Position numbers and translations under genes: made by a program | Source of the DNA: Pseudomonadota bacterium | Lineage (GTDB): Bacteria > Pseudomonadota > Gammaproteobacteria > Burkholderiales > JABEVD01 | Reading direction: 5' to 3' | DNA length: 64,000 bases | Assembly (NCBI GenBank): GCA_021802545.1 | Contig: JAJZRS010000004.1 | Location: 1-64,000, forward strand | The notes under the pieces: generated by a model | What the model was told of the DNA's origin: nothing | What the model saw: only the letters and a program-made list of their open reading frames with translations | Databases searched by the model: none | Shown: in pieces, positions 23,511-50,545 of the stretch | How the letters are laid out: each line of letters begins with the position of its first letter | Numbering within the stretch: position 1 is the first letter of the stretch

Positions 23511-23514
23511 CGAA

Positions 23515-25247: not shown

Positions 25248-25252
25248 GGCAT

Positions 25253-26956
25253 TCAGTCTTCATACTGGCTGCTGACCCGCATTGCCTCGGCCACCGTTGT
25301 CTTGCCGGAAAATGCCAATTCCGCCGCATAATGGCTCAAGGTACGTCCCTCCATCTGTTCGATTGCTGCCTGCATGAACTCGGCGGGATCATGATGATTG
25401 GCCGTCTCAGCCAATTCCTTGGTCATCTCCAGCATCTCGTATACCCCGGAACGTCCCTGGAATCCCGATTCGTTGCAGTGCGAACAGCCCTTTCCGCGCA
25501 TGTAACTGCCTTGCTCAAGCTCGCCGCCCCTCACCTGTTCGAGCCATGCCACCTCGTTCGGTTTCGGCGCGTAAGGCTCGGAACAGCTCTCGCAGTTGAT
25601 GCGCAAAAGACGCTGCGCCAGCACGACATGCAATGAACTTGCCACCATATAGCGCGGCACACCCATGTCCATGAGGCGCACAGGGGTTGAGGCCGCATTG
25701 TTGGTGTGCAATGTCGAAAACACCATGTGTCCGGTCATGGCCGCCCTGAGGCCGATCAGCGCTGTTTCCTGATCGCGCATCTCCCCCACCAGGATGATGT
25801 CGGGATCCTGGCGCAAAACCGAACGCAGCACTCTTCCGAAGGAAAGATCGATCTTCTCGTTGATCTGGATCTGATTGATTCCGGCAAGGTGGTATTCCAC
25901 CGGGTCCTCGACCGTGATGATATTGGTTTCCAGATTATTCAGCTCCGTGAGCGCTGCATAAAGCGTGGTCGTCTTGCCGCTTCCCGTGGGGCCTGTGACG
26001 AGCACCATGCCGTTCGGGCGGTGGATGATTTGTCTGAACCGCTCCAGCATCTCGGGCGGCATACCCAGGCGCTCCAGCGTCAGCATGCCGCGGCTCAGGC
26101 TCAACAGACGCATGACCACCGATTCGCCATACTGGGTGGGCATGGTCGAAATTCTCACGTCGACAATCTGGTCCCTGACCCTGAAATTGAAACTGCCATC
26201 CTGGGGAAGGCGCTTCTCTGAAATATCGAGTCCTGAAATCAGCTTGAGACGAAGCGCCAGGGCAGGCGCAATTTTGCTTTCAGCTTCGGTCTCGAGATGC
26301 AGCACGCCATCTATCCTGAAGCGTATCTGCAGACTGTGTTCCATGGGTTCGATGTGGATGTCGGATGCACCAGCCAGTGCCGCCGCCTCGAAAACAGTCT
26401 GGAGCAATTTCACGACAGGGGCATCTTCCGCGCCCGCACCGATCGGCAAGGCGCCGAAATCGACCAGACCTTCGCCAAGATCCTTGTTGAGTTCGTGCGC
26501 AAGCCCGCTGATCTGCTCGGTGCGCTGGTACATCCTGTCTATGGTCTGCACCAGCTGATCTTCATTCACCACTGCAAGGTCGACGTCGCGCTTCAGACCC
26601 CTCGATATCTCGTCGTAAGCGAACAGGTCGGTTGGATCGGCCATCCCAACCAGCGCCTTGTAATCCATATCTTCCAGAACAATGGCGTGAAAACGCCGCG
26701 CCAGGATCTCCGGCAAAAGATGCACGGCTTCCGGCCTCAAGGGATAGAACTTGAGATTGACGTAAGGAATCTTGAGCTGATCTGCAAGCACCCGGGAAAT
26801 CTGGTCTTCAGTGACGTAGCCATGCTCGACGAGCACCCTTCCCAGCCTGTTGCCGCTTTCGCTTCGTTCGACAAGCGCAGCATCGAGCTCCGCCTGGTCG
26901 ATCAACCCCTGCTTCAGCAGAATTTCCCCGAGCCTCGTTTTTTCCGGTCTGGCCAT
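25253..26956 (-). CDS. mshE: MshE pilus extension ATPase with c-di-GMP-binding MshEN domain
   Basis: A 567-residue GspE/PilB-family ATPase that powers MSHA pilus extension at the cytoplasmic face. The N-terminus has two tandem MshEN motifs, starting RLGEILLKQG (residue 8) and RLGRVLVEHG (residue 37), each with downstream Leu spacing; this motif pair binds c-di-GMP in Vibrio MshE. Walker A is GPTGSGKT (about 319-326), Walker B lies near IILVGEMRDQET, and a zinc-type Cys quartet (CESC...CSHC) is near the C-terminus. It is the first gene of the MSHA locus. Extension should therefore respond to c-di-GMP made by the adjacent cyclase. Confidence 0.96.
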   Translation of the reverse strand: MARPEKTRLGEILLKQGLIDQAELDAALVERSESGNRLGRVLVEHGYVTEDQISRVLADQLKIPYVNLKFYPLRPEAVHLLPEILARRFHAIVLEDMDYKALVGMADPTDLFAYDEISRGLKRDVDLAVVNEDQLVQTIDRMYQRTEQISGLAHELNKDLGEGLVDFGALPIGAGAEDAPVVKLLQTVFEAAALAGASDIHIEPMEHSLQIRFRIDGVLHLETEAESKIAPALALRLKLISGLDISEKRLPQDGSFNFRVRDQIVDVRISTMPTQYGESVVMRLLSLSRGMLTLERLGMPPEMLERFRQIIHRPNGMVLVTGPTGSGKTTTLYAALTELNNLETNIITVEDPVEYHLAGINQIQINEKIDLSFGRVLRSVLRQDPDIILVGEMRDQETALIGLRAAMTGHMVFSTLHTNNAASTPVRLMDMGVPRYMVASSLHVVLAQRLLRINCESCSEPYAPKPNEVAWLEQVRGGELEQGSYMRGKGCSHCNESGFQGRSGVYEMLEMTKELAETANHHDPAEFMQAAIEQMEGRTLSHYAAELAFSGKTTVAEAMRVSSQYED

Positions 26957-28949: not shown

Positions 28950-28968
28950 TTGCCGCCCTCCACGGCAA
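28950..28968 (-). terminator. Terminator-like hairpin in the pseB leader
   Basis: On the minus strand TTGCCG, a 7-base loop, CGGCAA and TTTTTT look like an intrinsic terminator, but no minus-strand gene ends here. On the plus strand the hairpin lies in the 160-base leader of pseB without a T-run. A TTGACA hexamer at 28904-28909 has no clear -10 partner. No other feature is seen in this intergenic region. Confidence 0.3.
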
Positions 28969-29027
28969 CATATTCCGATTCCACCATCCGAGTTTTCCAA
29001 AACCTGCACACTCAAGGTAATCAGACC

Positions 29028-30038
29028 ATGCTCAAAGACAAATCTATCCTGATCACCGGCGGAACCGGTTCATTCGGCAAGGCCTTCGTCAAAACCGTCC
29101 TCGACCGCTATCCAACCATCAGGCGTCTTGTGGTTTTTTCGCGTGACGAATTGAAGCAGTTCGAGATGTCCCAGGAATTTTCGACGGAAAAATACCGCGG
29201 GCTGCGCTACTTCATCGGCGATGTGCGCGACGAAGCAAGATTGCGCCGCGCCGTCGAAGGCATCGACATCGTGGTTCATGCAGCCGCCATGAAACAGGTG
29301 CCCGCCGCCGAATACAACCCCTTCGAATGCATCAAGACCAACATACTCGGCGCGCAAAATCTCATTGAAGCCTGCCTGGACAGCAAGGTGCAGAAGGTCG
29401 TGGCCCTGTCCACGGACAAGGCTGCCGCCCCCATCAATCTCTACGGCGCAACGAAGCTCTGTTCAGACAAGCTCTTCATTGCCGCGAACAACATCCGCGG
29501 TAATCGCGATATACGCTTCAGCGTGGTTCGCTACGGCAATGTCATGGGAAGCCGAGGTTCCGTCATTCCCTTCTTCCTCGAAAAAAGAGCGAGCGGAAGC
29601 CTGCCGATCACGGATCCCGCCATGACGCGCTTCAACATCAGCCTTCAGGAAGGCGTGGACATGGTGCTCTGGTCGATCGAGAACGCATGGGGCGGGGAAG
29701 TCCTGGTGCCCAAGATTCCTTCCTATCACATCACGGATGTCGCGAAAGCCATCGGCCCCGAATGCGAGCAGACTGTCATTGGGCTGCGACCAGGCGAAAA
29801 GATCCACGAGGAAATGATCACCGCAAGCGACAGCTTCAACACCGTCGACCTCGGCGATTACTACGCGATCCTATCTTCCAGCGGGAGCTACACGCTTGAC
29901 GAATATTGCGCAAAAACTGGCGCAAAGCAGGTCGAACCGGGATTCAGCTATAGCAGCGGCAACAACGAGCGCTTCCTGAGCGTTTCAGAACTGAGTGCGC
30001 TGATCCGCGAGCATGTCGATCCCACTCATGGAGCGTGA
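29028..30038 (+). CDS. pseB: UDP-GlcNAc 4,6-dehydratase (inverting), PseB
   Basis: A 336-residue extended SDR enzyme, the first step to pseudaminic acid: UDP-GlcNAc to UDP-2-acetamido-2,6-dideoxy-beta-L-arabino-hex-4-ulose. The nucleotide-binding loop is ILITGGTGSFGKAF (about 7-20). HAAAMKQVPAAEYNPFE and STDKAAAPINLYGATK (catalytic Asp-Lys and Tyr-x3-Lys) match the FlaA1/PseB family, as does the normal length. The start 29028 has AAGG upstream and fits the family; in-frame sequence from 28950 has no supporting signal. First gene of the cassette, 3 bp before pseC. Confidence 0.95.
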   Translation: MLKDKSILITGGTGSFGKAFVKTVLDRYPTIRRLVVFSRDELKQFEMSQEFSTEKYRGLRYFIGDVRDEARLRRAVEGIDIVVHAAAMKQVPAAEYNPFECIKTNILGAQNLIEACLDSKVQKVVALSTDKAAAPINLYGATKLCSDKLFIAANNIRGNRDIRFSVVRYGNVMGSRGSVIPFFLEKRASGSLPITDPAMTRFNISLQEGVDMVLWSIENAWGGEVLVPKIPSYHITDVAKAIGPECEQTVIGLRPGEKIHEEMITASDSFNTVDLGDYYAILSSSGSYTLDEYCAKTGAKQVEPGFSYSSGNNERFLSVSELSALIREHVDPTHGA

Positions 30039-30041
30039 TGT

Positions 30042-31199
30042 ATGATCCCGTACGGCAGGCAGCATATCAGCGAGGACGACGTTGCAGCTGTCCTCGACGT
30101 GCTGAATTCTGACTTTTTGACCCAGGGCCCCGCCGTGCCCGCCTTCGAAAAAGCCGTGGCCGACTATTGCGGCGCAAGACATGCCCTGGCGACCAACAGC
30201 GCGACCAGCGCACTGCACATTGCCTGCCTCGCGCTTGGCGCGGGAGCAGGAGACATCGTCTGGACGAGCCCCATCACCTTCGTCGCATCATCCAACTGTG
30301 CGCTTTATTGCGGCGCTGGCATCGATTTCGTCGACATCGATCCCGAAACCTGCAACATGAGCTTAGACAAGCTCGAAACAAAGCTTGAAGCAGCGGAAAG
30401 GGAAGGCAAGCTCCCCAAAATCGTCATTCCGGTGCATTTCGCAGGGCAATCCTGCGAAATGGAAAAAATCGCCGCGCTTTCCGGGAAATACGGCTTCAAG
30501 GTCATCGAGGACGCCTCGCATGCCATCGGCGGCAGCTACCGTGGCGAACCCATAGGCTCCTGTCGCCATTCCGACATCACTATCTTCAGCTTCCATCCCG
30601 TCAAGATCGTCACGACGGGCGAAGGCGGCATGGCATTGACCAACGAAGCGCCTCTTGCCGAGAAAATGGCGCTGCTCCGCAGCCACGGCATCACACGGGA
30701 TCCGGACTTCATGACCCATGCGCCCGACGGTCCCTGGTATTACCAGCAGATCGAACTCGGGTTCAATTACAGGATGACGGACATCCAGGCTGCGCTCGGA
30801 AAAAGCCAAGTGAACCGCCTCGACGAATTCGTATCAAGGCGCAACAGGCTCGCTGAGCGATACGACGATCTCCTGAAGGCATTGCCATTGATGCCGCTCG
30901 GCCGGCATCCCGACGCCTATTCGGCCTACCATCTATACACGGTCAGGTTGAAGCTCGATGCCATCAGAAAAAGCCATCTCGAGGTATTCGAGGGACTCAG
31001 AAAAAGCGGCATAGGGGTCAACCTCCATTACATTCCCGTCCATACGCAGCCCTATTACCGGAAACTGGGATTCGACTGGGGCGACTATCCAGAGGCCGAA
31101 AACTATTACAGGGCGGCCATCACCCTGCCGCTATACTACGGACTGACCGAAGCCCAGCAGGACGAGGTCGTCGCATCGCTCAGGAGGCTTTTGAAATGA
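30042..31199 (+). CDS. pseC: UDP-4-amino-4,6-dideoxy-AltNAc transaminase, PseC
   Basis: A 385-residue PLP aminotransferase of the DegT/DnrJ/EryC1 family, here of PseC type (MIPYGRQHISEDDVAAVLDVLNSDFLTQGP). The PLP lysine is K188 in FHPVKIVTTGEGG, and VIEDASHAIGG supplies the PLP-contacting Asp. It aminates C4 of the PseB product using glutamate. GGAG sits 8 bases before the ATG, and its stop overlaps the pseF start by 4 bp. Confidence 0.95.
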   Translation: MIPYGRQHISEDDVAAVLDVLNSDFLTQGPAVPAFEKAVADYCGARHALATNSATSALHIACLALGAGAGDIVWTSPITFVASSNCALYCGAGIDFVDIDPETCNMSLDKLETKLEAAEREGKLPKIVIPVHFAGQSCEMEKIAALSGKYGFKVIEDASHAIGGSYRGEPIGSCRHSDITIFSFHPVKIVTTGEGGMALTNEAPLAEKMALLRSHGITRDPDFMTHAPDGPWYYQQIELGFNYRMTDIQAALGKSQVNRLDEFVSRRNRLAERYDDLLKALPLMPLGRHPDAYSAYHLYTVRLKLDAIRKSHLEVFEGLRKSGIGVNLHYIPVHTQPYYRKLGFDWGDYPEAENYYRAAITLPLYYGLTEAQQDEVVASLRRLLK

Positions 31200-31897
31200 A
31201 CATCGCCGTCATTCCGGCAAGAGGAGGGAGCAAACGCATCCCGCGCAAAAACATCAAGCCTTTCGCGGGAAAACCGATGATCGCGCATGCCATCGAAGCC
31301 GCCAAGGAATCCGGACTGTTCGATCATGTGGTGGTCACGACCGACGACGAGGAAATCGCGGGCATATCGCGCCAGCTTGGAGCCGAAACCCCTTTTGCGA
31401 GGCCGCCGGAACTGGCAGACGACCATACTCCGACCGTCCCCGTGGTCGCCCACGCCATTCAAACCTGCCAGTCGCTCGGTTGGGATGTCGACTATACCTG
31501 CTGCATCTATCCGGGCGTACCGTTCATCCGCATCGAAGACCTCAGAGGCGCATTCGAGCTTTTGAAGCGCTCCGGCAAGGACTTTGCCTTCCCGGTGACC
31601 GAGTTTCCGTCAGCCATCCAGCGCGCGCTCAGAAGGCTTCCAGACGGGTCCATGCAGCCATTCTATCCGCAATATGAAATGACCCGAACCCAGGATCTCG
31701 AGCCGGCCTATCACGATGTGGGGCAGTTCTACTGGGGAAAAAGCGACGCGTGGCTTTCCGGAAAAAGAATCCACAGCAACGGAATCGGATTGCCGATTCC
31801 GAGCTGGCGCGCAGTCGACATCGACACTCCAGACGACTGGGTGCGGGCGGAGATACTTTACAAACTGCTGAAAGAGGAAAATACCAATGGGGGCTGA
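31196..31897 (+). CDS. pseF: Pseudaminic acid cytidylyltransferase, PseF
   Basis: A 233-residue CMP-sugar synthetase of the NeuA/PseF family; it activates Pse with CTP to CMP-Pse, the donor for glycosyltransferases. IAVIPARGGSKRIPRKNIK (residues 3-21) is the nucleotide-binding signature. RPPELADDHTPTVPVV and the DVGQFYWG motif are typical of PseF rather than NeuA. It overlaps pseC by 4 bp and the methylase by 11 bp. Confidence 0.95.
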   Translation: MNIAVIPARGGSKRIPRKNIKPFAGKPMIAHAIEAAKESGLFDHVVVTTDDEEIAGISRQLGAETPFARPPELADDHTPTVPVVAHAIQTCQSLGWDVDYTCCIYPGVPFIRIEDLRGAFELLKRSGKDFAFPVTEFPSAIQRALRRLPDGSMQPFYPQYEMTRTQDLEPAYHDVGQFYWGKSDAWLSGKRIHSNGIGLPIPSWRAVDIDTPDDWVRAEILYKLLKEENTNGG

Positions 31898-32513
31898 ATA
31901 CAGAACAGAACAGGAAACATTCTGGGCAGGAGAGTTCGGCAACGAGTATTTGAAAAGAAATCGCGGAGCCGAATGGATCGCGGCCAACCTTGCATTCTTC
32001 TCAAAAATACTCTCACGGACCGAAAAAGTCGGTTCGGCGATCGAATTCGGCGCCAATATCGGACTCAACCTGATTGCACTCAAGCAGCTTCTTCCCCATG
32101 CGGAATTATCGGCAATAGAAATCCATGAGGGCGCGGTAAGGGAGCTTTCCAGCCTCGGCTTCGTCAAACCCTACCATCAGTCTATTCTCGATTTTTCCCC
32201 TGACTACGAAAGAGACTTTGTCCTGATCAAGGGCGTGCTGATCCACATCAACCCCGACATGCTTCCAGAAGTCTACGACAGGCTTTACGCGTCGAGCGGA
32301 CGCTACATCTGCGTTGCGGAATATTACAATCCCGCGCCCGTCACGGTGAATTACCGCGGCAATGCAGACAGGCTGTTCAAGCGCGACTTCGCTGGCGAAA
32401 TGCTCGACAGGTTCAGCGATTTGCAGCTGCTGGATTACGGTTTCGCCTATCATCGCGACCCGAAATTTCCCCAGGACGACCTGACTTGGTTCCTTATGGA
32501 AAAACGCCGATGA
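31887..32513 (+). CDS. Pseudaminic acid biosynthesis-associated methylase
   Basis: A 208-residue SAM-dependent methyltransferase resembling the small family that accompanies pse clusters (Pse_Me-ase type). It opens with EYRTEQETFWAGEFGNEY, has the SAM loop AIEFGANIGLNLIAL (about 51-65) and a later LIKGVLIHINPDML motif. The acceptor is not known; methylation of a Pse derivative is inference from location between pseF and pseG. GAGG lies about 10 bases before the ATG. It overlaps pseG by 4 bp. Confidence 0.85.
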   Translation: MGAEYRTEQETFWAGEFGNEYLKRNRGAEWIAANLAFFSKILSRTEKVGSAIEFGANIGLNLIALKQLLPHAELSAIEIHEGAVRELSSLGFVKPYHQSILDFSPDYERDFVLIKGVLIHINPDMLPEVYDRLYASSGRYICVAEYYNPAPVTVNYRGNADRLFKRDFAGEMLDRFSDLQLLDYGFAYHRDPKFPQDDLTWFLMEKRR

Positions 32514-33985
32514 AAATCGCCATTCGTGCCGATGCCTCGATCGAGACGGGCAGCGGTCACGTCATGCGTTGCCTGGCTCTTGCTGAAGCGTTGCGCGACA
32601 GAGGGGGGAAGATCGGTTTCGTCAGTCGTGAAAGGAAGGGAAACCTGAGCGATCTAGTAGAAGCCCGGGGGTTTCGTGTCGCCAGGATTCCGGAAACCCC
32701 GGATGATGGATGGGAGCATGACGCATCGCTCACCCTTTCCGCCCTAAAAGATTGGGGAATGGTCGAATGGCTGATCGTTGATCATTATGGAATCGACGCG
32801 AGATGGGAATCAGAGCTCAGGAATAGCGCGAAAAGAATCATGGTGATAGACGACCTGGCCGACAGGGTTCACGACTGCGATCTGCTGCTCGACCAGAACC
32901 TGCAGGGGGGCACGGAGGACCGTTACAAGGATCTGGTTCCTCCCCAATGCATCAGGCTGCTTGGCCCAAAATATGCGCTTCTCAGGCCGGAATTCGCAAG
33001 AATCAGGGAGACGCTGAGAATGCGTGACGGGAAAGTCAGGCGCATTCTGGTTTTTTTCGGCGGCAGCGACCCGAGCAATGAAACCGCCAAGGCGCTTGAA
33101 GCGATCCAGCTGCTCGACAGACCCGACATTGCGATTGACTTGGTTGTAGGCAGCTCGAATCCGCGCCGTGATGAAGTCAAGCAGATTTGCGAATCGCTCC
33201 CGAATGCGGCATTCCACTGCCAAGCAGGCAACATGGCCGAACTGATGGCCGAAGCCGACATTTCAATCGGTGCAGGGGGCAGTGCCATGTGGGAACGATG
33301 TGCGCTCGGTCTGCCCACCCTCGTCGTCTGCGTCGCGGAAAACCAGTTATCTGGCAGCACTGCGATGGCCGAAAAGGGCTGCATTCTCTATCTCGGGAAA
33401 AGCAGCGAGGTCAACGCCGCTTTGCTGCGCAGCGCGCTGGAGGTTGCATGCGCATCGCCTCATTTGCTGATCAACATGGGGCGCGCAAATGACCAACTCG
33501 CCGACGGACGCGGCGCAAATCGCATCGCCGACCGCCTCGTGCAAAAACCGATCGCTCTGCGCGAAGCGACCCAAAAAGACTGCGATTCCCTGTACCATTG
33601 GCGCAACGACGAAGAGTCGAGACGATTTTCAAGCAATCCCGACCCCATCCTTTATGAAAATCATGTCGAATGGTATAAGAACGCCATGAATGACCCCGAT
33701 CGCCTGATTCTGATCGGTGAAACGGACCATGCTCCGGCAGGCGTTGTCAGGTTCGATCGCGAGGATTCACGAGCCGTCATATCCGTCTACCTTGTTCCCG
33801 GAAAAATGGGCAAGGGACTGGGGACCCGTCTCATTGAAGAGGGGGTTCGCTGGATAGAAGGCCGCTGGCCAGTCAAAACGATAGACGCCCTGATAGACAC
33901 GAGGAATCATGCTTCCATCGCTGCTTTCGAAAAAGCCGGTTTCCTGGAGCGGCAATGCATCTACTCGAAAACCGTGAGGGCATGA
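32510..33985 (+). CDS. pseG: PseG-PseH fusion: nucleotide-sugar hydrolase and N-acetyltransferase
   Basis: A 491-residue two-domain protein. Residues 1-335 are PseG, a GT-B-fold hydrolase that releases UDP from UDP-2,4-diacetamido-2,4,6-trideoxy-beta-L-altropyranose; IETGSGHVMRCLALAEAL and SIGAGGSAMWERCALGLPTL are diagnostic. Residues about 345-491 are a GNAT acetyltransferase (LREATQKDCDSLYHWRNDEE, then YLVPGKMGKGLGTRLIE with the acetyl-CoA loop), matching PseH, which acetylates N4 just before the PseG step. No separate pseH is present, so the fusion supplies both activities. ATG 32510 forms a 4-bp overlap with the methylase stop. Confidence 0.92.
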   Translation: MKIAIRADASIETGSGHVMRCLALAEALRDRGGKIGFVSRERKGNLSDLVEARGFRVARIPETPDDGWEHDASLTLSALKDWGMVEWLIVDHYGIDARWESELRNSAKRIMVIDDLADRVHDCDLLLDQNLQGGTEDRYKDLVPPQCIRLLGPKYALLRPEFARIRETLRMRDGKVRRILVFFGGSDPSNETAKALEAIQLLDRPDIAIDLVVGSSNPRRDEVKQICESLPNAAFHCQAGNMAELMAEADISIGAGGSAMWERCALGLPTLVVCVAENQLSGSTAMAEKGCILYLGKSSEVNAALLRSALEVACASPHLLINMGRANDQLADGRGANRIADRLVQKPIALREATQKDCDSLYHWRNDEESRRFSSNPDPILYENHVEWYKNAMNDPDRLILIGETDHAPAGVVRFDREDSRAVISVYLVPGKMGKGLGTRLIEEGVRWIEGRWPVKTIDALIDTRNHASIAAFEKAGFLERQCIYSKTVRA

Positions 33986-33987
33986 TC

Positions 33988-35031
33988 ATGCACATTTCAA
34001 ACAGAGAAATCGGGAAAGGCGCCGCTCCTTTCATCATCGCCGAAATGTCCGGCAACCACAATCAATCGCTCGACCGTGCACTGGAAATCGTCGAAGCTGC
34101 AGCAAAATCCGGCGCGCACGCGCTCAAAATCCAGACCTATACCGCAGACACCATGACCCTGGATCTGGAAGAAGGCGAATTCTTCATCTCCGACCCCAAT
34201 TCGCTGTGGAAGGGAAAATCCCTGCACAAGCTTTACCAGGAAGCCTACACGCCATGGGAATGGCATGGGCCGATCCTCGATGCGTGCAGGAAGCTCGGCA
34301 TGATCGGATTCTCGACGCCCTTCGACGAAACCGCTGTGGATTTCCTGGAAGAGCTCGACGTGCCCTGCTACAAGATCGCCTCTTTCGAGAATACCGATTT
34401 GCCCCTGATCAGGAAAGTGGCTTCCACGGGCAAGCCGATGATCATCTCGACGGGCATGGCGACCGTTGCCGAACTCGACGAGACCGTGCGCGCGGCGCGG
34501 GAATCGGGATGCAAGGATCTCGTCCTCCTGAAATGCACCAGCACCTATCCGGCAACCCCCGAAAACACCAACATTCTGACCATCCCTCACATGAGGGAGC
34601 TCTTCGGATGCGAAGTCGGGCTTTCCGACCATACCATGGGTATCGGCACGGCACTGGCTTCGGTCGCGCTCGGCGCATCCATCATCGAAAAGCACTTCAC
34701 CTTGCGACGGGCTGACGGCGGCGTGGATTCAGCTTTTTCAATGGAGCCCGAAGAAATGCATGCGCTCGTCGTCGAATCAGAACGGGCATGGCAATCCCTG
34801 GGCAAGGTGAGCTACGGTCCGACGAAGCAGGAAAGCCAGTCGCTGGCCTACCGACGCTCGCTCTACTTCGTCAGAGACATGAAGTCAGGGGATACGATCA
34901 CAGCCGACGATATCCGAGCCATCCGCCCAGGCTTCGGATTGCCGACCAAGTATCTCCCGATCCTGCAGGGCAAGCGCGTCACACGGGATGTCAGGAGAGG
35001 CACGCCCGTGAACTGGGAGCTCTTCGGCTGA
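33988..35031 (+). CDS. pseI: Pseudaminic acid synthase, PseI
   Basis: A 347-residue NeuB-family synthase that condenses phosphoenolpyruvate with 6-deoxy-AltdiNAc to give Pse. It has a TIM barrel (IAEMSGNHNQSLDRALEIVE, FDETAVDFLEELDVPCYKIAS, LKCTSTYPATPENTNI) and a C-terminal SAF domain (MKSGDTITADDIRAIRPGFG). Two in-frame ATGs exist: 33982 overlaps the pseG stop (ATGA), but GAGGG lies only one base before it, whereas 33988 has the same GAGGG at a 7-base spacing, so 33988 is chosen. The next gene overlaps by 1 bp. Confidence 0.95.
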   Translation: MHISNREIGKGAAPFIIAEMSGNHNQSLDRALEIVEAAAKSGAHALKIQTYTADTMTLDLEEGEFFISDPNSLWKGKSLHKLYQEAYTPWEWHGPILDACRKLGMIGFSTPFDETAVDFLEELDVPCYKIASFENTDLPLIRKVASTGKPMIISTGMATVAELDETVRAARESGCKDLVLLKCTSTYPATPENTNILTIPHMRELFGCEVGLSDHTMGIGTALASVALGASIIEKHFTLRRADGGVDSAFSMEPEEMHALVVESERAWQSLGKVSYGPTKQESQSLAYRRSLYFVRDMKSGDTITADDIRAIRPGFGLPTKYLPILQGKRVTRDVRRGTPVNWELFG

Positions 35032-42108: not shown

Positions 42109-42136
42109 TAAAGTTTTCCCCAAGCTTCTCCGATAA
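42109..42136 (+). promoter_or_regulatory. Sigma-28 (FliA) promoter of fliC
   Basis: TAAAGTTT, a 12-base spacer, then TCCGATAA. The enterobacterial flagellar consensus is TAAAGTTT-N11-GCCGATAA, so both boxes match (8/8 and 7/8) with one extra spacer base. Transcription would begin near 42143, giving a leader of about 59 nt to the fliC ATG. Confidence 0.88.
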
Positions 42137-42201: not shown

Positions 42202-45200
42202 ATGCCATTCTATGTCAATACGAACATCGCGTCGCTGACCGCGCAGATGAATCTGACGAACACCCAGAATTCACTCGCAACTTCCCTGCAGCGCCTCTCC
42301 TCCGGTCTCAGGATCAATTCCGCAAAGGACGACGCTGCAGGTCTTGCGATCTCCCAAAGGATGAGCGCCCTGATCGGCGGCCTCAACCAGGCGCAAAGAA
42401 ATGCAAACGACGGCATCTCGCTGGCTCAGACCGCGGAAGGCGCGCTCGGCACCATCGGCACCAACCTTCAGACGCTGCTGACGCTGGCAGTGCAATCCTC
42501 CAACAGCACCAATACCTCGATCGACCGCGCAGCGATCCAGACCCAGGCGGCCCAGATCATCGCGCAGATCGACCAGACTGCTGCAACCACACAGTTCAAC
42601 GGCGCCAACCTGCTCGACGGTTCCTTCCAGAACATGGCATTCCAGATCGGCGCTGACGTGGGACAGACGACCTCGATCTCGATCAACAGCGCGAGGGCAT
42701 CCAACCTGGGAAGTACCCAGTCGGCCTCCCTTACCGCTTACAACAACGGCACTGCCCTCTCGCAGGGCGACCTGACGATCAACGGCACGACGGTCGGCCC
42801 TTCGCTTGCAACCTACGACAACGCCTCCTACGCGAACAACGCGGACAGCGCGATCGCCAAGGTCGCAGCGATCAATGCGGTGACCTCGCAGACCGGCGTG
42901 ACCGCCATGGTCAACACCAACATCGCAGCAGGCGGTGCCCAGACGGCTGGTGCCAGCACCGGAACGCTGACCATCAACGGCGTTCAGACCGCAACGATCT
43001 CCACCTCGGGATCCGCCTCCGCTGACCGCCTGGCGGTGGTCAACGCGATCAACGCGATTTCCGGCAAGACCGGCGTCACCGCAGTCGACACGGGGCTTGC
43101 AGCCACCGGTATCCAACTTCAAGCGGCAGACGGCAGGAACATCACCTACAGCTTCAACGGCGGTCTGACCGGCGCAACCACCGGACTCACGCACATCACA
43201 GGCGGCACCATGCAGTCGGCCGCCTCCGCCCTGCTGCTCAACGGCGTCAACGGCGTATCCGCAGTGACGGCATCGAACGCCCTTGCCGGCACCACTGCAA
43301 CCAATGTCCTGGTCGGCGTGACCGCTACAACCGGTACCGCAGCCTCGCAAATCAACGTGGTCATCAACGGCGTATCGCTCGGCGTCTACACGCTGACCGG
43401 CACGGCAAACACCGACATGGGTGCAATACAAAACCTGATCAACACGAGCTCGACCCTGGCCGCCCTCGGCGTCACCGCGGTCACGAACAGCGGCGCGCTC
43501 AACGTGGTCTCCACGCAAGGGTCCGTCACGGTCAAGATCGCATCGATCGCCGGCAGCACGACCAGCCTCAGCAACGTCGGAATGGCCGGCGGAGCGACCA
43601 CTTTCGGCTATGTGGCAGGCGGGCCTGCAAGCCTGGCAGGGGTTGCAGCGATCGGCGGCGGTGGCGGCGCGACCACGATGAATTTCTCCGTCAACGGCGT
43701 CGCCATAGCCATCACGCTCAGCAACGTTTCCGCCAACAACGTCACCGCGTTCATCAATGCGGTCAACACGAACACCACCCTGTCCGGACTGGGCATCACC
43801 GCATCGCTCAATGCAAACGGCGGCGCGAACCTGACCGATACGCAAGGCACGCTCAGCATAAACAACTCTGGCGGCCTGACGCTGAGCTGGGTCGGCCTGA
43901 CCGGCGGATCCGGTACCAGCGTGAGCGTCACAGCAGTCAATGCGGTCTCCACCCTGACCATCAACAACGTCCAGGTGAATGTCACGATGAGCGGCACGCT
44001 GTCGACAGACGTCGCCCACGCAGTCTCCCTCGTCAACGCCAACACCAGCCTGGCTGCCCTGGGCATCACCGCGACGGTAGATGCAACGACAGGCGGGATC
44101 GACCTGAAATCCACGCAGGGCGACATCATCGCGAGCGGAACGACTGGACAGTTGCTCGGCATGACTTCCGGATCGGTGGGCGTGCCCAACAGCCAAGTGC
44201 TCGGCACCACCGCACAAAACGTGCTTTCCGGTGCGACGCTGGCCGCCGCAACGTCCAATGACCAGCTGAACTTCTACATCAACGGCGTCCATTTCGCGCT
44301 GAGCCTGACCGCCACTTCCGCGACCAACGAAACCAACGCCATCGCGCTGATCAATTCCCAGACGGGCGTAACGGGCGTCACGGCTGCCGTGAATGGAACC
44401 ACCGGCGGGATCGATTTGACCTCCACCACCGGATCGGTCAACGTCTATTACGACACCGTCAACTCAACCGGCAACGCAAGCCTGGGCAACATCGGCATAA
44501 CGGGAGGCAGGGGTTCCTCGACGGCAGGCGGCGCAGGGCAGCTCACCGGCATCGGCGCAACGGCTGGCGGCGCTGGCAGCCTGGTGAACTTCAGCATTGC
44601 CGGCGTCGCGCTGTCGCTCACCTTGACCGGAACATCTGCAACCGACGTCGCAGCAGCCGCATCCCTGATCAACGCAAGCGCGTCCCTTGCAGCCCTCGGC
44701 ATCACCGCCTCGGTGAATTCGCTGAACGGCGGGCTGAACATCAAGGATACGCAAGGCGGATTCACGATCACCAACAACGGCACTGGTGCCGGCTCCCTGA
44801 ACAATATCGGTGTGGCAGCAACAGGTACCGCTGCGGTCACCGTCCAGGCCGACGCGGTCGACAACATTGCCATCAGCGGCGTGAACATCGCAGTCACGCT
44901 TTCCGGCACGCTGAGCACTGACGTCGGTCACGCAGTTTCCCTGATCAACGCCAACACCAGCCTGCAAACGCTGGGCATCACCGCCACGGTGAATGCGAAC
45001 GGCGGTATCGACCTGACCAGCACGAGCGGCGCCATCACTTCCTCGGGCACGTCGAACACCCTCGGCAACGTTCTGCTCGGCATGACCCAGGGCTCTGCAT
45101 CCGCGCCCAACAACGTGTTCACTGTCACGGTCAACGGACAAGCGATCTCGATCACGCTGACGGCCAGCACGATCTCCGTCAATGTCCAGCACGCAGCCTC

Positions 45201-46914
45201 CCTGATCAACGCGCAGACGGCTTCGACCGGCGTAGCGGCGACCTACAACGCGACCACGAACGGCCTCGACCTGACCTCGACCACCACCAGCGGCGTTACC
45301 GCATCCGGATCGATCACCGCCTTCGGCATGGGCTCGACCAACAGCGGCACGGCGAACAGCGTGGTCAACCTCAGCATCAACGGCACAGCCATCGCAGTGA
45401 CGCTCACCGGGGTGTACTCAACCGACGTCCAGCATGCGCAGAGCCTGATCAACGCGCAGACAGTGCTGACAGGAGTTTCGGCATCGATCGTCAACGGAGA
45501 AATCAACCTGAACGCCAACACGCTGGCAGGCGTCAATGTCACCAGCACCGCAAGCGCAGGCGCATCCGTAGGCAATGTCGGCCTGGTAGCAGCAACCACG
45601 GCAGGCACGACCGGCGCCAACATCAGCTTCTCGATCAACGGCCAGGCCCTGACCTACACGCTGACCGGCGTGCAGTCGACCGACCTGAATGCGGCCGCAT
45701 CCCTGATCAACTCCTTCTCCAACGTGACCGGCGTGAGCGCCACGCTCTCGCTCGACGGCATCTACCTGAGCTCGCTCAACGGCAATGCTGTCACGCTGAC
45801 GGGAGGAACCGGCACGGCGACCCTGCTGAATCTCGGCTTGAAATCCGGCGCAACTGCAGTCGCTGCCACCTCGCCAGTCAACTACTACGGCACCTACTCG
45901 CTGAGCTCCTCCAGCGCCATCACCATCGGCGGCGGAACGGGCATCGCCGACTCGGGCATGGTCGCAGGCAGCTACAACACCCAGACAGCCTATGCCACTA
46001 CGGCAACGGGAAGCAGCACTGCCTTCACCTCAGGCGACTTCACGATCAACGGCATCATGGTCGGATCGTCTTCCGCCAACTCGGACACGGCATCGACAAC
46101 GGGCAATGCAGCAAGCGCGATAGCAAAGGTTGCCGCGATCAACTCGGTTTCTTCGCAGACCCACGTGACCGCGACGGTCAATGCCAACATGGTCGCAGGC
46201 TCGGCGCAGACAGCTGCAGCATCGAGCGGTACCCTGACCATCAACGGCATCACGACAGGAACGATCACGACCGGCGGCGCCAATGCAACCTCCGACAGGC
46301 TGTCCGTGATCACGGCGATCAACGCGATCTCCGGTCAGACGGGAGTTGTGGCTTCCGACAGCGGTTCCGCTGCGAACGGCATCAACCTCACCGCTGCAGA
46401 CGGACGCAACATCGTCTTCAGCTACGGCGGAACGCTGACCGCATCGAGCACTGGCCTGTCCACAAACACCAGCACCCACTACGGCACGTTCTCGCTGTCT
46501 TCCGCATCGCAGTTTACCGTGGCGCAGGGAACCAACAGCGTGGACTTGACCGCAGAAGGCATGCTGGCGGCAGGCACCTACGGAGCGGGCAAGACCGGCG
46601 GAGCGCTTTCGAACCTCGATCTGTCTACCGCTCAGAACGCGACCAACGCGATCACCGCGATCAACAACGCGATCAACTCGGTCAACACGATCCGCGCAAA
46701 CCTGGGTGCGATCCAGAACAGGTTCACCAACGTCATCACTTCCTTGCAGAACACGACGACGAACCTGAGCGCTGCGAACAGCCGTATCATGGACGCGGAC
46801 TTCGCTGCGGAAACGGCCAACCTGTCCCGCTCGCAGATCCTGCAACAGGCAGGTACCGCGATGCTGGCCCAGGCGAACCAGCTTCCCAGCTCTGTGCTCA
46901 GCTTGCTGAAGTAA
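42202..46914 (+). CDS. fliC: Giant flagellin
   Basis: A 1570-residue flagellin, about three times the usual 270-550. The conserved D0/D1 ends are intact: residues 1-180 (MPFYVNTNIASLTAQMNL, LSSGLRINSAKDDAAGLAIS, QRNANDGISLAQTAEGAL) and about 1474-1570 (NTIRANLGAIQNRFTNVI, ILQQAGTAMLAQANQLPS). The 1290-residue middle is Ser/Thr/Gly/Asn-rich, without Cys, and built of repeated Flagellin_IN-like modules (INGVxxxLTLTGTSATD...SLINAxTxLxxLGITA). GGGAG precedes the ATG. Exported through the flagellar type III system with FliS, and a likely target of the adjacent Pse cassette. Assembly of such a long surface domain would give an unusually thick filament; this is inference. Confidence 0.96.
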   Translation: MPFYVNTNIASLTAQMNLTNTQNSLATSLQRLSSGLRINSAKDDAAGLAISQRMSALIGGLNQAQRNANDGISLAQTAEGALGTIGTNLQTLLTLAVQSSNSTNTSIDRAAIQTQAAQIIAQIDQTAATTQFNGANLLDGSFQNMAFQIGADVGQTTSISINSARASNLGSTQSASLTAYNNGTALSQGDLTINGTTVGPSLATYDNASYANNADSAIAKVAAINAVTSQTGVTAMVNTNIAAGGAQTAGASTGTLTINGVQTATISTSGSASADRLAVVNAINAISGKTGVTAVDTGLAATGIQLQAADGRNITYSFNGGLTGATTGLTHITGGTMQSAASALLLNGVNGVSAVTASNALAGTTATNVLVGVTATTGTAASQINVVINGVSLGVYTLTGTANTDMGAIQNLINTSSTLAALGVTAVTNSGALNVVSTQGSVTVKIASIAGSTTSLSNVGMAGGATTFGYVAGGPASLAGVAAIGGGGGATTMNFSVNGVAIAITLSNVSANNVTAFINAVNTNTTLSGLGITASLNANGGANLTDTQGTLSINNSGGLTLSWVGLTGGSGTSVSVTAVNAVSTLTINNVQVNVTMSGTLSTDVAHAVSLVNANTSLAALGITATVDATTGGIDLKSTQGDIIASGTTGQLLGMTSGSVGVPNSQVLGTTAQNVLSGATLAAATSNDQLNFYINGVHFALSLTATSATNETNAIALINSQTGVTGVTAAVNGTTGGIDLTSTTGSVNVYYDTVNSTGNASLGNIGITGGRGSSTAGGAGQLTGIGATAGGAGSLVNFSIAGVALSLTLTGTSATDVAAAASLINASASLAALGITASVNSLNGGLNIKDTQGGFTITNNGTGAGSLNNIGVAATGTAAVTVQADAVDNIAISGVNIAVTLSGTLSTDVGHAVSLINANTSLQTLGITATVNANGGIDLTSTSGAITSSGTSNTLGNVLLGMTQGSASAPNNVFTVTVNGQAISITLTASTISVNVQHAASLINAQTASTGVAATYNATTNGLDLTSTTTSGVTASGSITAFGMGSTNSGTANSVVNLSINGTAIAVTLTGVYSTDVQHAQSLINAQTVLTGVSASIVNGEINLNANTLAGVNVTSTASAGASVGNVGLVAATTAGTTGANISFSINGQALTYTLTGVQSTDLNAAASLINSFSNVTGVSATLSLDGIYLSSLNGNAVTLTGGTGTATLLNLGLKSGATAVAATSPVNYYGTYSLSSSSAITIGGGTGIADSGMVAGSYNTQTAYATTATGSSTAFTSGDFTINGIMVGSSSANSDTASTTGNAASAIAKVAAINSVSSQTHVTATVNANMVAGSAQTAAASSGTLTINGITTGTITTGGANATSDRLSVITAINAISGQTGVVASDSGSAANGINLTAADGRNIVFSYGGTLTASSTGLSTNTSTHYGTFSLSSASQFTVAQGTNSVDLTAEGMLAAGTYGAGKTGGALSNLDLSTAQNATNAITAINNAINSVNTIRANLGAIQNRFTNVITSLQNTTTNLSAANSRIMDADFAAETANLSRSQILQQAGTAMLAQANQLPSSVLSLLK
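42760..43212 (+). repeat. Flagellin_IN pair, N-terminal copy inside fliC
   Basis: Residues about 187-337 of the flagellin hold two Flagellin_IN units (DLTINGTTVGPS... and TLTINGVQTATIS...DRLAVVNAINAISGKTGVTA). The same pair, with the same order and internal landmarks (SAIAKVAAIN, QAADGRNI-type), recurs at 46012-46440. Confidence 0.85.
43303..45860 (+). repeat. Nine tandem 75-110-residue modules inside fliC
   Basis: Between residues about 368 and 1219 I count nine diverged modules, each with a strand such as NFSxNGVxxxxTLTGTxxTD, a helix such as AxSLINAxTSLAALG, a strand ITAxVNxxxGGxxLxSTxG and a short variable tail. They are homologous as protein but have drifted at the DNA level, so recent slippage is not implied. 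Confidence 0.8.
46012..46440 (+). repeat. Flagellin_IN pair, C-terminal copy inside fliC
   Basis: Residues about 1271-1413 repeat the N-terminal pair at 42760-43212: DFTINGIMVGSS, SAIAKVAAINSVSSQT, TLTINGITTGTI, DRLSVITAINAISGQTG, LTAADGRNIVFSYGG. The two pairs bracket the nine-module array. Confidence 0.85.
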
Positions 46915-46985: not shown

Positions 46986-47342
46986 ATGGGCATTTCATCC
47001 ATCACCATGAGCGGCGCAAGTCAGGCGGCGGATTTACAACCTACGCCCCCAGCACCATCTGCGGCCGGAAACGCTTCCGCATCTGGAGCTGCCTCGCAGC
47101 CACAGAACGGGGAACCGACGCAGGCTCAGCTGAACCACGCGGTGAACCAGATCAACGACGTGATCCAGACTTCCAACAAGGACGTGCTGTTTTCCGTGGA
47201 CAACCAGAGCGGCCGCTTCGTCGTGAAAGTCATGGACACGCAAACCAACGAAGTCATCCGCCAGATCCCGAGCAAGGAAACGCTCGCTATCGCGGATGCG
47301 CTCGGCAAGCTTCAGGGAATCATCCTCAAGCAGCAAGCCTAA
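46986..47342 (+). CDS. flaG: FlaG family flagellar protein
   Basis: A 118-residue FlaG protein: a low-complexity N-terminus (Ala/Pro/Ser) followed by the conserved domain LNHAVNQINDVIQTSNKDVLFSVDNQSGRFVVKVMD and EVIRQIPSKETLAIADALG (region about 50-113). FlaG influences filament length in several bacteria, probably at the filament base or cap. AAGGAG precedes the start at good spacing; fliD follows 9 bp later. Confidence 0.92.
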   Translation: MGISSITMSGASQAADLQPTPPAPSAAGNASASGAASQPQNGEPTQAQLNHAVNQINDVIQTSNKDVLFSVDNQSGRFVVKVMDTQTNEVIRQIPSKETLAIADALGKLQGIILKQQA

Positions 47343-47351
47343 GGAGGGACC

Positions 47352-50096
47352 ATGTCCACTTCTTCCACGGGCCTCGCCAACGTAGGCTCCTCGATCCTTG
47401 GAGCGACAGGCGTTTCTTCGCCCGGAATAGGGTCAGGGCTCGATGTGAACGGCATCGTCTCCAAGCTGATGAACGTCGAGGCGCAGCCCATCGTCCTGCT
47501 GCAGAACCAGCAGTCGAGCTACCAGACCCAGCTCTCCTCGATCGGCAGCGTCAGCAGCGCGCTTTCCCAGCTTCAGGGCGCGATGGGCGGTCTGACCAAC
47601 CTCTCCAGCCTCCAGTCGATGAGCGCGACGCCCTCCAATTCGAGCGTCGTCACCGCAACGGCTGGCTCGCTCGCCACTGCCGGAAGCTACAACATCGGCG
47701 TGACGACCCTCGCCCAGGCGCAAACCCTGGTCGCTGCAGGGCAGGCTAACACCACTTCAGCAATCGGGTCCGGGTCTTCGACCACCCTGACGTTCTCGTT
47801 CGGCACGACGACGGGAACAGTGACCACCGGCGTCTACCAGGCTGGCACGACCTTTTCCCAGGATCCCACCCAGCCGACCAAGAAGGTCACCATCGACAGC
47901 ACGAACAATTCCCTGACCGGGATCATGAACGCGATCAATGCCGCGAACATCGGCGTGACGGCCACCATCGTCAACGACGGCACTGGCACGCCCTACCGGC
48001 TTGCGCTCACTTCCTCGTCGGGCGCTGCCCACAGCATGGAAATCGCAGTTTCCGGGGACACCACGCTGCAAAGCCTCCTGAACTTCAATCCGACGCAGAC
48101 GGCAGGATCCGGGCAGAACATGACGGAATCCGTCTCGCCCAAAAATGCCGCCTTGACCGTGAACGGGCTTAGCATCACGAGCGCATCCAACTCGGTTACC
48201 GGAGCGATTTCAGGCGTCACGCTGAATCTGACCGGAACGGGTTCGTCCAGCCTCAACGTGGCCTACAATTCTTCCACCGTCCAGAGCGCGATACAGAATT
48301 TCGTCAACGCCTACAACACCGTCAACAGCACGATCAATACCCTGACGGCCTACGATCCTTCGACGAAGACGGCAGGTCCCTTGCTCGGAGATTTCGCCAC
48401 CCTCTCGGTTCAAACCGGATTGAGGGGCGTGCTTTCCCAGCCCCTGACAGGGCTTGGAAACAAGAACATCACCACTCTTGCCCAGCTCGGCATCACATTC
48501 CAGAAGGATGGCTCGCTTGCCTTCGACACGACTGCATTTGCAAGCGCAGCGGCAAGCAATCCTTCCGAGATCGCAGCGATGTTCGCGCCGATCGGCCAGC
48601 CCACCGACAGCCTGATATCCTATGCCACTTCGACAAGCAAGACGCAGGCAGGAAGCTATGCAGTCACCGTATCGCAACTTGCCACCCAGGCGAATGAAAC
48701 GGGTACTGGCACGGTAGGCGCATCGACGGTCATCAGCACGGGATCGAACGTCGTCACCAATGCCAGCATGGCGGCAGCAGGCGCAGTCACCGATCTCGGC
48801 GCGAATTCAATCAGCTTCGGCGTCTCGGTGGGCGGAGGTGCCGTCAACACCGTCACGGTCAACGGCCTTTCCACAGGATCGAGCTTCAACGCGAAGCTCA
48901 ATGCGGCCGACATCGCGAATGCAGTGAATACGAATGCATCGGTTGCGGCTGCCGGACTCGTCGCATCGGTCGATTCGAACGGAAACCTTAATTTCGCCAC
49001 CTCCAACGGACAATCAGTTGCATTCTCGGCCTTCACAGGCGGCACATTCACTGGGATGAGCGGGCTCGGAACAGGGCTGTCAAACAGCTTCTCGGCAGCC
49101 GGCGCAATGACCAATGCAGCAGAAACCGACACCATCACCGTTGCAGGCGTGCCGCTCACCGTGACCGCAACCGGCACGGCGACAACCGATGCATCCGCAT
49201 TGCAAACGGCCATCAATGGGAATGCCACCCTGCAATCCATGGGAATCACAGCAGCGCTTTCATCGACAAACAATTCTGTGGTGATCACGGCATCCGACGC
49301 AAGGGCAGTCAGCCTTGCCATCACGCCCGGCACGAACGGCACCAACACGCTGGCTTCCTGGGGTTTTTCATCAGGCACGGCAAGTGAAGCAGCGTTGTCG
49401 AAATACAACAACACATTGAGCCTCAGCGTGGATGGCTACAGCACGACCGTGACCCTGGCGCCCGGCACCTATAGTCAGGCTAATCTCGCCTCGCTTGTCC
49501 AGTCGGCGATCAACGGCGACTCGACGCTCTCAGCCGCGAATTCTTCTGCGTCGGTTGCAATCAACGGCAGCAACAATGCGATCATCACATCCAACCGCTA
49601 CGGCGCTTCATCCAGCGTATCGGTGACGGCGGGCGGCGGCGCATACGCCCTGATCGGCACTTCAGGCTCATCCACTGCAGGGCTTGATGTCGCGGGCACT
49701 ATAAACGGCACCGCCGCAACAGGTTCCGGGCAATTCATGACGGGCGCTGCCGGAACCCCGACAGAAGGGCTCGAGCTGCAGGTCAAGGGCGGATCGACGG
49801 GGTCGAGGGGAACCGTGAACTTCTCGCTCGGCTATGCCGACCAGCTCAACAATACGATCACCGACTACCTGTCGAGCACTGGGGTCGTCACCACGGCGAC
49901 GAACAGCATCAACACCAACATCCAGAGCATCAATTCGCAAATCTCGACCATGTCGCAGCATCTCGTGGATGTACAGAACCAGTACCTGGCCCAATTCCAG
50001 GCGCTGGACACAATCATTGCCCAGATGACCACCACCGGCAACTATCTGACGCAGCAATTCACCTCAATGAGCTATACCCAGAAAAATTACGGATAA
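47352..50096 (+). CDS. fliD: Flagellar filament cap protein FliD, enlarged
   Basis: A 914-residue FliD, versus about 450-700 in most species. The FliD N-domain is at about 20-115 (GSGLDVNGIVSKLMNVEAQP) and the C-domain coiled coil is at about 820-905 (QSINSQISTMSQHLVDVQNQ). Between them lie repeated Flagellin_IN-like units (LTVNGLSITSASNSVTGAISG, AETDTITVAGVPLTVTATGT, NNTLSLSVDGYSTTVTLAPG) in an insertion near residues 415-770. It caps the growing filament and folds flagellin monomers, so enlargement alongside the giant FliC is notable. AAGGAGG sits 5 bases before the ATG. Confidence 0.95.
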   Translation: MSTSSTGLANVGSSILGATGVSSPGIGSGLDVNGIVSKLMNVEAQPIVLLQNQQSSYQTQLSSIGSVSSALSQLQGAMGGLTNLSSLQSMSATPSNSSVVTATAGSLATAGSYNIGVTTLAQAQTLVAAGQANTTSAIGSGSSTTLTFSFGTTTGTVTTGVYQAGTTFSQDPTQPTKKVTIDSTNNSLTGIMNAINAANIGVTATIVNDGTGTPYRLALTSSSGAAHSMEIAVSGDTTLQSLLNFNPTQTAGSGQNMTESVSPKNAALTVNGLSITSASNSVTGAISGVTLNLTGTGSSSLNVAYNSSTVQSAIQNFVNAYNTVNSTINTLTAYDPSTKTAGPLLGDFATLSVQTGLRGVLSQPLTGLGNKNITTLAQLGITFQKDGSLAFDTTAFASAAASNPSEIAAMFAPIGQPTDSLISYATSTSKTQAGSYAVTVSQLATQANETGTGTVGASTVISTGSNVVTNASMAAAGAVTDLGANSISFGVSVGGGAVNTVTVNGLSTGSSFNAKLNAADIANAVNTNASVAAAGLVASVDSNGNLNFATSNGQSVAFSAFTGGTFTGMSGLGTGLSNSFSAAGAMTNAAETDTITVAGVPLTVTATGTATTDASALQTAINGNATLQSMGITAALSSTNNSVVITASDARAVSLAITPGTNGTNTLASWGFSSGTASEAALSKYNNTLSLSVDGYSTTVTLAPGTYSQANLASLVQSAINGDSTLSAANSSASVAINGSNNAIITSNRYGASSSVSVTAGGGAYALIGTSGSSTAGLDVAGTINGTAATGSGQFMTGAAGTPTEGLELQVKGGSTGSRGTVNFSLGYADQLNNTITDYLSSTGVVTTATNSINTNIQSINSQISTMSQHLVDVQNQYLAQFQALDTIIAQMTTTGNYLTQQFTSMSYTQKNYG

Positions 50097-50107
50097 GGGA
50101 AACCATC

Positions 50108-50545
50108 ATGTATACGAACCTGGCAACAAGCTACACCGACGTCGGCATGGAAACCGGCGTTGCTGCGGCCGATCCGCACAAGCTGATCCTCATGCTTTTC
50201 GACGGCGCGCTGCTCGCCATCACGAAGGCACGTTACTTCATGCTGTCCGGGGAAATTCCGCTGAAGGGGCAATCCATTTCCCACGCCATCACGATAATCG
50301 AGAACGGTCTCAAGGCCGGCCTCGACATGAATGCCGGCGGCGAAATCGCCAAGAATCTCGCCTCCCTCTACGACTACATGACCCTGCGCCTGCTCCACGC
50401 CAACCTGAAAAACGACGTGGATGCCCTGGACGAAGTCGCCAAGCTCCTCAAGGACATCAAGGGTGCATGGGAGTCGATCGCCCCAGCTCCTTCAGCCATT
50501 GAACAGGTCGCACCGCAAAGGGTGAACAGCTACGGCAAGGTCTGA
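50108..50545 (+). CDS. fliS: Flagellin export chaperone FliS
   Basis: A 145-residue helical chaperone: YTDVGMETGVAAADPHKLILMLFDGALLAITKAR is the FliS signature, slightly N-terminal of a four-helix bundle. It binds the C-terminal D0 region of flagellin in the cytoplasm and prevents premature polymerisation. It follows fliD by 11 bp and is 1 bp before fliT. Confidence 0.95.
   Translation: MYTNLATSYTDVGMETGVAAADPHKLILMLFDGALLAITKARYFMLSGEIPLKGQSISHAITIIENGLKAGLDMNAGGEIAKNLASLYDYMTLRLLHANLKNDVDALDEVAKLLKDIKGAWESIAPAPSAIEQVAPQRVNSYGKV

Follow-up and report, generated by a model that had tools for sequence, protein, structure and literature searches.

The flagellin gene fliC in the window analysed here, a stretch of 64,000 nucleotides from a Burkholderiales genome, encodes a protein of 1570 residues, which raises the question how the other parts of a flagellum are matched to such a subunit. 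In the two species tested in PMC6248924, filaments made of giant flagellins are 30 nm thick or more, in line with the thick filaments foreseen in the initial annotation of this locus, and Thomson 2018 asked there whether other components of thick flagella are correspondingly large. The present genome is a concrete case for that question: hook, FlgK, filament and cap proteins are all enlarged with respect to ordinary-sized congeners and would form correspondingly thick structures. The initial annotation had recognised the giant, Cys-free flagellin with canonical ends and Flagellin_IN-like modules, had credited it with a glycosylation cassette of its own, which does not hold, and had missed the enlargement of FliD, FlgE and FlgK. 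We consider it likely that the genome encodes a motile, FliA-controlled flagellum with an outer surface enlarged by repeats that are shared between parts. The features on which this reading is based are collected in Table 1.

Table 1. Features of the flagellar locus in order of position. Coordinates are those of the window; C7 positions follow the same contig numbering and lie outside it.
Feature	Position	Strand	Remarks
Pseudaminic acid pathway	28950..35031	+	upstream of fliC; NCBIfam
PseB, PseC, PseF	starts 28950, 30042, 31196	+	NCBIfam, over cut-offs
Methyltransferase-like gene	start 31887	+	between PseF and PseG-PseH
PseG-PseH fusion, PseI	starts 32486, 33955	+	PseG and PseI over NCBIfam cut-offs
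TPR protein, 978 aa	39120..42056	+	adjoins fliC here and in G007, G002, G004
Sigma28 (FliA)-type promoter-like site	42109..42136	+	TAAA, spacer 16, TCCGATAA; 11/12 consensus bases
fliC, giant flagellin, 1570 aa	42202..46914	+	single unbroken frame, ATG 42202, stop 46914
D0/D1 N-terminal half, aa 1-150	42202..42651	+	89% identity to G007 flagellin
Resident outer domain, first half, aa 160-378	42679..43335	+	common to relatives
Nine-bead array, aa 379-1219	43336..45858	+	missing from 5/5 congeners with fliC read
Bead b	43336..43602	+	own-bead profile
Bead c	43669..43929	+	own-bead profile
Bead d	43930..44190	+	own-bead profile; 63% identity to bead g
Bead e	44251..44520	+	own-bead profile
Bead f	44572..44835	+	own-bead profile
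Bead g	44836..45111	+	own-bead profile
Bead h	45112..45357	+	own-bead profile
Bead i	45358..45606	+	own-bead profile
Bead j	45607..45858	+	own-bead profile
Resident outer domain, second half, aa 1220-1483	45859..46650	+	common to relatives
D0/D1 C-terminal half, aa 1484-1570	46651..46911	+	Pfam Flagellin_C
flaG	46986..47342	+	Pfam
fliD, enlarged filament cap, 914 aa	47352..50096	+	FliD_N and FliD_C (Pfam)
FliD insert, aa 485-682, two flagellin-type beads	48804..49397	+	missing in FliDs of 5 congeners
fliS, flagellin chaperone	50108..50545	+	Pfam
fliK, hook length control, 332 aa	50825..51823	+	Pfam
flgL, 403 aa	C7:66113-67324	-	Flagellin_N match; outside window
flgK, 1504 aa	C7:67336-71850	-	FlgK_D1 and Flg_bbr_C; just outside window
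flgE, 965 aa	C7:76143-79040	-	FlgE rod, D1, D2 and C-terminal domains; outside window

The canonical ends are recognised by Pfam far above the curated cut-offs, as Flagellin_N at residues 5-142 (E 5.9e-38) and Flagellin_C at residues 1484-1569 (E 3.5e-26). With D0/D1 intact and more than 1000 residues (1580 when taken as a stop-to-stop open frame), the protein belongs to the giant flagellins. It has a mass of 152 kDa, a pI of 4.5 and not a single Cys; residues 161-1440 consist for 16% of Thr, 12% of Ser, 9% of Asn, 15% of Ala and 13% of Gly. Promoter-like sites were scored against a 12-base sigma28 consensus. The score of the fliC site was not reached by shuffles of the upstream stretch (maximum 10, n=200), and sites with 10-11 of the 12 bases lie at about the same place 5' of fliC in G007, G002, G004 and G008. 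Both flagellin ends, this site and the flaG-fliD-fliS neighbourhood identify the gene as fliC. Beyond fliK follow a gene for a YcgR-type PilZ protein, a regulator pair and then fliF, fliG and a flagellar-type ATPase gene. Antisense to fliC runs an open frame of 673 aa (42271-44292, - strand), probably a shadow of biased codon use.

The beads are about 85 residues long and of the Flagellin_IN type, with pairwise identities of 28-63%; d and g form the closest pair and differ at 31/27/41% of first, second and third codon positions. Against a profile of which they are the seeds the nine beads score 98-118 bits, where shuffled proteins reach at most 18.7 (n=100). Flagellin_IN itself (PF07196) scores 20.0 bits on the whole of FliC, against a curated cut-off of 22.7, and matches five of the nine single beads at E <=0.1 (best 2.1e-5). 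The IN-like modules of the initial annotation are real, and its estimate of a module region of some 1290 residues was too generous: residues ~160-378 and ~1220-1480 belong to the resident outer domain, which is also present in G007, G002 and G004. Only 3.1% of the residues in the array are D, E, K or R. In a phylogenetic tree the nine beads form one group, with a support of 91/83 that is below the tool's star mark, and the resident halves group with the halves of relatives (95/97), apart from the beads. An origin of the array as an expansion of the resident outer domain is not supported, because of this separation.

An AlphaFold2 model of three beads, based on an 11-row alignment, predicts separate beta-beta-alpha-alpha-beta-beta domains (mean pLDDT 77, pTM 0.44). 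VIA-align superposes the bead on flagellin D2 and FliD D2/D3 domains (2zbi, 4nx9, 8erm, 5h5w) with an rmsd of 2.4-3.1 over 75-82 residues and Z scores of 5.2-7.1 (flagellin D2: 2zbi 7.1, 4nx9 6.8; FliD D2/D3: 5h5w 6.5), and on the Campylobacter hook 5jxl with Z 5.0, values below 8 that may mean only a common arrangement. The best match is a phage tail sheath domain (8kee, Z 10.0). For the bead models every Foldseek E value exceeded 0.01. Among PDB sequences the bead profile matched solely the FliD 6iwy (E 3.7e-4), on which VIA-align gives Z 5.0 but an rmsd of 12.5 over 137 residues. The bead fold thus resembles flagellin D2 and FliD D2/D3, where one or two such domains occur as opposed to nine in tandem here.

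The nearest relative, G007, has a flagellin of 681 aa, and the FliCs of four other congeners measure 506-673 aa from the start Met. Since the array is absent from all five readable congener genes, by parsimony it was most likely gained on the branch of this genome. An ordinary fliC was not found in congeners G003, G005 and G006. A survey of the order detected flagellin at E 1e-30 in 175 of 300 genomes; among the matches listed, those above 1000 aa come from this genome (1580), G179 (1054 and 1038) and G025 (1104 and 1400). Among 398 genomes drawn from the phylum, the own included, the bead profile at 1e-6 finds the own genome and one further genome with a weak match. Within the range of these searches, giant flagellins are as rare in the host's group as had been supposed. 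Joined matches of up to 6.7 kb in relatives turned out to consist of adjacent flagellin genes, ordinary or moderate in size. G025 has three large flagellin frames in a row (1104, 910 and 1400 aa; G025:C2:582000-600000), adjoining a FliD of 970 aa.

A separate normal flagellin gene, with the giant gene silent, had been named as the case that would overturn the reading of fliC as the filament gene. In the 2.77 Mb genome, which is 99.98% complete, Flagellin_N matches three genes: the giant fliC, flgL and an orphan of 267 aa that consists of D0/D1 only (L035:7821-8621, - strand, contig C27); a second ordinary flagellin gene was not found in this search. The filament could be built from this minimal flagellin, with the giant fliC accessory or silent, and the small gene does have both Flagellin_N (2.6e-25) and Flagellin_C (1.5e-7) matches. 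It shares, however, 36% identity with the D0/D1 of the giant, no flagellar genes were recognised by eye among the neighbouring frames, and no sigma28-like site precedes it, the best score of 8/12 being the commonest among shuffles and hence at chance level. The giant, on the other hand, has a promoter-like site, an operon and a strongly conserved N-terminal D0/D1 half. Relatives of the orphan occur in G001, G005, G006 and G008, hence also in two genomes, G005 (only 82% complete) and G006, where neither an ordinary FliC nor a full FliD was found. The orphan therefore appears to be a poor candidate for the filament, and we regard an orphan-based filament as very improbable. G006, which lacks an ordinary FliC, a full FliD and FlgK in our searches, does have an FlhA-type gene.

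Enlargement is not restricted to the filament. FliD, FlgE and FlgK all carry their family domains at both ends, and each is longer than in congeners. The FliD frames of five congeners measure 689-704 aa, and the extra stretch of about 200 residues contains two beads, to which the flagellin bead profile gives 29.0 and 55.8 bits (shuffles at most 18.7, n=100). In a BLAST comparison with 140 FliC-type and 75 FliD-type frames, the second inserted bead is closest to beads of its own FliC (50.8, 50.1 and 50.1 bits), the best match outside these being the giant flagellin of G179 (45.8 bits); the first is equally close to the G179 giant-flagellin family (45.4) and to the own FliC (45.1). BLAST thus speaks for a copying of the insert from the FliC array in the case of the second bead alone, and the bead tree leaves the insert unplaced. 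The next bead, residues 683-780, is of ancestral FliD type, with 48-56% identity to the five congeners. In the FliD model the body is predicted confidently and most of the insert has a pLDDT below 50; the second inserted bead shows the same strand-helix order, at lower confidence.

From the start Met, FlgE measures 487 aa in G001, 493 in G008, 491 in G004 and 487 in G007, the stop-to-stop frame of 539 in the latter including 52 residues before the likely start. FlgK frames measure 869 (G001), 919 (G008), 867 (G004) and 867 (G002) aa, that of G007 being cut by the contig end. FlgL stays at the size of the nearest relative (407 aa in G007) while the other parts are enlarged; elsewhere its frames are longer, not shorter (440 in G004, 489 in G002, 553 in G008, 558 in G001). 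The extra length of FlgE and FlgK contains an Ala-rich repeat of about 79 aa, in seven copies in FlgE and nine in FlgK, scoring 57-130 bits each (shuffles at most 23.9, n=50). Congeners have a single copy in FlgE (G001, G004, G007, G008) and in FlgK (G001, G002, G004, G007, G008, the last with an additional partial one), full copies scoring 40-79 bits; none above 10 bits was seen in the incomplete FlgE of G002. At 1e-5 the repeat profile finds the own genome only among the 398 phylum genomes, a sample that cannot have included G001, whose match is 3e-12 in a separate search. Conceivably, an older and longer array shrank in the five congeners. PDB matches of the repeat to TAL effectors were dismissed as composition, not kinship, because many Ala-rich repeats are summed and no single stretch passes alone.

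Most of the repeats pair by position between both genes: E2-K2 at 60% (99/95), E3-K3 at 67% (98/99), E4-K4 at 75% (93/94), E6-K8 at 64% (85/32) and E7-K9 at 62% (92/83). Two of the seven FlgE repeats are unpaired, E1 being nearest to K9, and E5 showing 53% to K4 and 52% to K5. Paired repeats differ mostly at third codon positions (E4-K4 15/14/62%), a bias such as purifying selection would leave and which is weaker for the flagellin beads. The middles of FlgE and FlgK align over 588 aa in this genome with 58% identity; G001 gives the same identity over 211 aa, and G008 gives 38% over 255 aa. Outside the repeats the FlgE outer domain has 77% to G001 before the array and 74% to G008 after it, as against 60% and 48% to its own FlgK. 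A gene conversion of the whole domain between this genome's flgE and flgK is not supported, since FlgE outside the repeats is nearer to congener FlgE than to its own FlgK; any exchange would therefore concern the arrays. In G001, the FlgE outer domain scores 202 bits with its own FlgK and at most 166 with other FlgEs. FlgE_D2 is found in FlgK of all six genus genomes with an FlgK match, the own included, and in none of the FlgK-sized frames of 16 other genomes with a match. This restriction to the genus suggests that a hook-type D2 entered FlgK before the arrays expanded.

Across the order, part lengths were compared as stop-to-stop frames in 30 of 60 genomes, the own included, in which both a FliD and a FliC match of E 1e-30 or lower are present; FlgK is available for 29 of them and FlgE for 18. 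Genomes missing a part were excluded, as were G001, G002 and G004 (less than 90% complete), FlgK of G007, truncated at its contig end, and the incomplete genes of G058; the FliC frame of 231 aa retained for G010 may be partial. FliC length correlates with that of FliD (Spearman 0.55; 0.50 without this genome), shows no correlation with FlgK (0.17, n=29) and correlates with FlgE (0.50, n=18) only when this genome is included (0.40, p 0.11 without it). A general law by which the other parts scale with flagellin length was therefore rejected, and the coupling of enlargement across the order appears only partial. Flagellins of 952 aa (G152) and 937 aa (G165) go along with FlgE of 492 and 445, FlgK of 649 and 705 and FliD of 506 and 456 aa, respectively. 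In 150 genomes searched, 102 of them with FlgK, this protein exceeds 1000 aa in this genome, G145 (1485) and G046 (1203).

Joint enlargement was compared in 16 genomes chosen for large parts or as congeners, not as a random sample, and FliC above 1000, FlgE above 700, FlgK above 1000 and FliD above 900 aa occur together in this genome only. The next is G179 (FliC 1054, FlgE 774, FlgK 982, FliD 609); G025 has an FlgE of 708 and a FliD of 970 but an FlgK of 506, and G046 enlarges FlgK alone (FliC 586, FlgE 419). G288 has an FlgK of 1076 aa. The middles of FlgE and FlgK share sequence in G179 (44% over 85 aa), and no such similarity was found at E 1e-3 in G145, G288, G046, G230 and G025. G145 (G145:C7:17000-31000) has an FlgE of 1034 and an FlgK of 1485 aa, whose mutually unrelated middles are highly charged (26% and 19% DEKR), along with flagellins of about 730 aa; hook and junction would here have become large by another route. 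In the literature covered, which includes few subscription papers, we found no report of a joint enlargement of FlgE, FlgK, FliC and FliD.

Judged by their sequences, hook, junction, filament and cap seem to have been enlarged in pairs sharing repeats, and since all four are enlarged in this way, the tail seems to have thickened as a whole. Nine independently folding Flagellin_IN beads would have been inserted into the resident outer domain of the fliC product and two beads of the flagellin kind into FliD, while one ancestral repeat within a shared hook-type D2 would have expanded in FlgE and FlgK, its copies largely in matching order in both genes. The unchanged D0/D1 cores would polymerise as usual, and the beads would therefore stack outside and project outward. 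If expressed, the resulting filament would be thicker, near-neutral, Ser/Thr-rich and probably glycosylated; hook, junction and cap would be of comparable girth, presumably mutually adapted, with the thicker hook and junction keeping the outer surface continuous. Low charge, the absence of Cys and the high Ser/Thr content would be favourable both for O-glycosylation and for exporting so long a chain unfolded. In PMC6248924 the Salmonella filament is 24 nm thick with a flagellin of 495 aa, and that of Bermanella was measured at 30 nm or more with 1020 aa. If cross-section area scales with subunit size, 1570 aa would give about 43 nm; the same rule gives 34 nm for Bermanella.

As described in PMC6248924, the giants of Bermanella marisrubri and Oleibacter marinus likewise exceed 1000 aa, are the sole true flagellins and carry an internal duplication of the surface region between intact D0/D1. 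They differ in having the Oceanospirillales arrangement of two tandem DE regions, joined in the largest by a DX insert, in place of nine tandem beads, their hosts are not Burkholderiales, and the enlargement of FliD, FlgE and FlgK seen here is for them an open question. In Campylobacter, according to PMC5691160, the hook subunit has an extra outer domain, and the hook shapes the outer domain of FlgK; here, unlike there, FlgK has a domain akin to hook D2 and both proteins carry tandem arrays of one kind of repeat.

Such arrays could also have grown neutrally: surface domains tolerate insertions, low-complexity repeats rich in Ala, Ser, Thr and Gly expand by unequal crossing-over, and four enlargements need no common function. 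This would agree with the nearly uncharged state of the FliC array, the FliD insert and the FlgE and FlgK arrays (1.5-4.5% DEKR), with the single hook-repeat copies that pre-exist in congeners and with the enlargement of FlgK alone in G046. We nevertheless think it rather unlikely, as this one genome has four of the five extracellular axial parts enlarged, the repeats of FlgE and FlgK mostly follow a matching order, and their third-position bias, weaker in the flagellin beads, resembles that left by purifying selection. It is similarly doubtful that the array serves mainly as an adhesive or glycan-bearing scaffold, for biofilm formation, mineral attachment, phage shielding or acid tolerance, with thickness as a by-product. 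The array is Ser/Thr-rich, Cys-free, near-neutral and close to a pseudaminic acid cassette, and the fold of its beads recurs in phage tail domains and in surface domains of flagellin; yet Pfam, applied to the whole protein and bead by bead, detected neither adhesin nor enzyme domains in it, and a scaffold leaves the larger hook, FlgK and cap unexplained.

The cassette itself argues against a scaffold as well. PseB, C, F, G, H and I are all represented, PseH as part of the fusion with 50.2 bits against an NCBIfam cut-off of 93.1, and G007 has the end of pseC, pseF, pseG/H, pseI and the TPR gene adjoining its 681-aa flagellin gene. Since it also lies beside this shorter flagellin, the cassette, real as it is, would belong with the locus and not with gigantism, and is not the giant's own as was claimed. 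As in known Pse flagellin glycosylation cassettes, PseB, C, F, G/H and I lie in order upstream of fliC; different from these, a flagellin glycosyltransferase belonging to a named family was not identified. The TPR protein, which matches no Pfam family past residue 260 (some 700 C-terminal residues), is a candidate for a flagellin-modifying enzyme; its gene was not seen in the few kb read upstream of fliC in G001 and G008, whose flagellins are shorter.

With the thickened tail as the preferred reading, the question how the parts of a multi-protein tube stay matched becomes directly testable, and the matching FlgE and FlgK arrays suggest that one route is recombination between the genes of adjacent parts. 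Perhaps, although we hold this more tentatively, girth is evolvable organelle-wide: if flgE and flgK copy repeats from each other and fliC and fliD share one bead type, the outer shells would stay matched while repeat number changes, so that the tail could thicken as a unit. Elsewhere in the window, at 21765-26956 on the - strand, a gene for a Wzy/PglL-type protein glycosylation ligase adjoins pilus-type T2SSF and T2SSE genes, possibly a second, pilin-directed glycosylation system.
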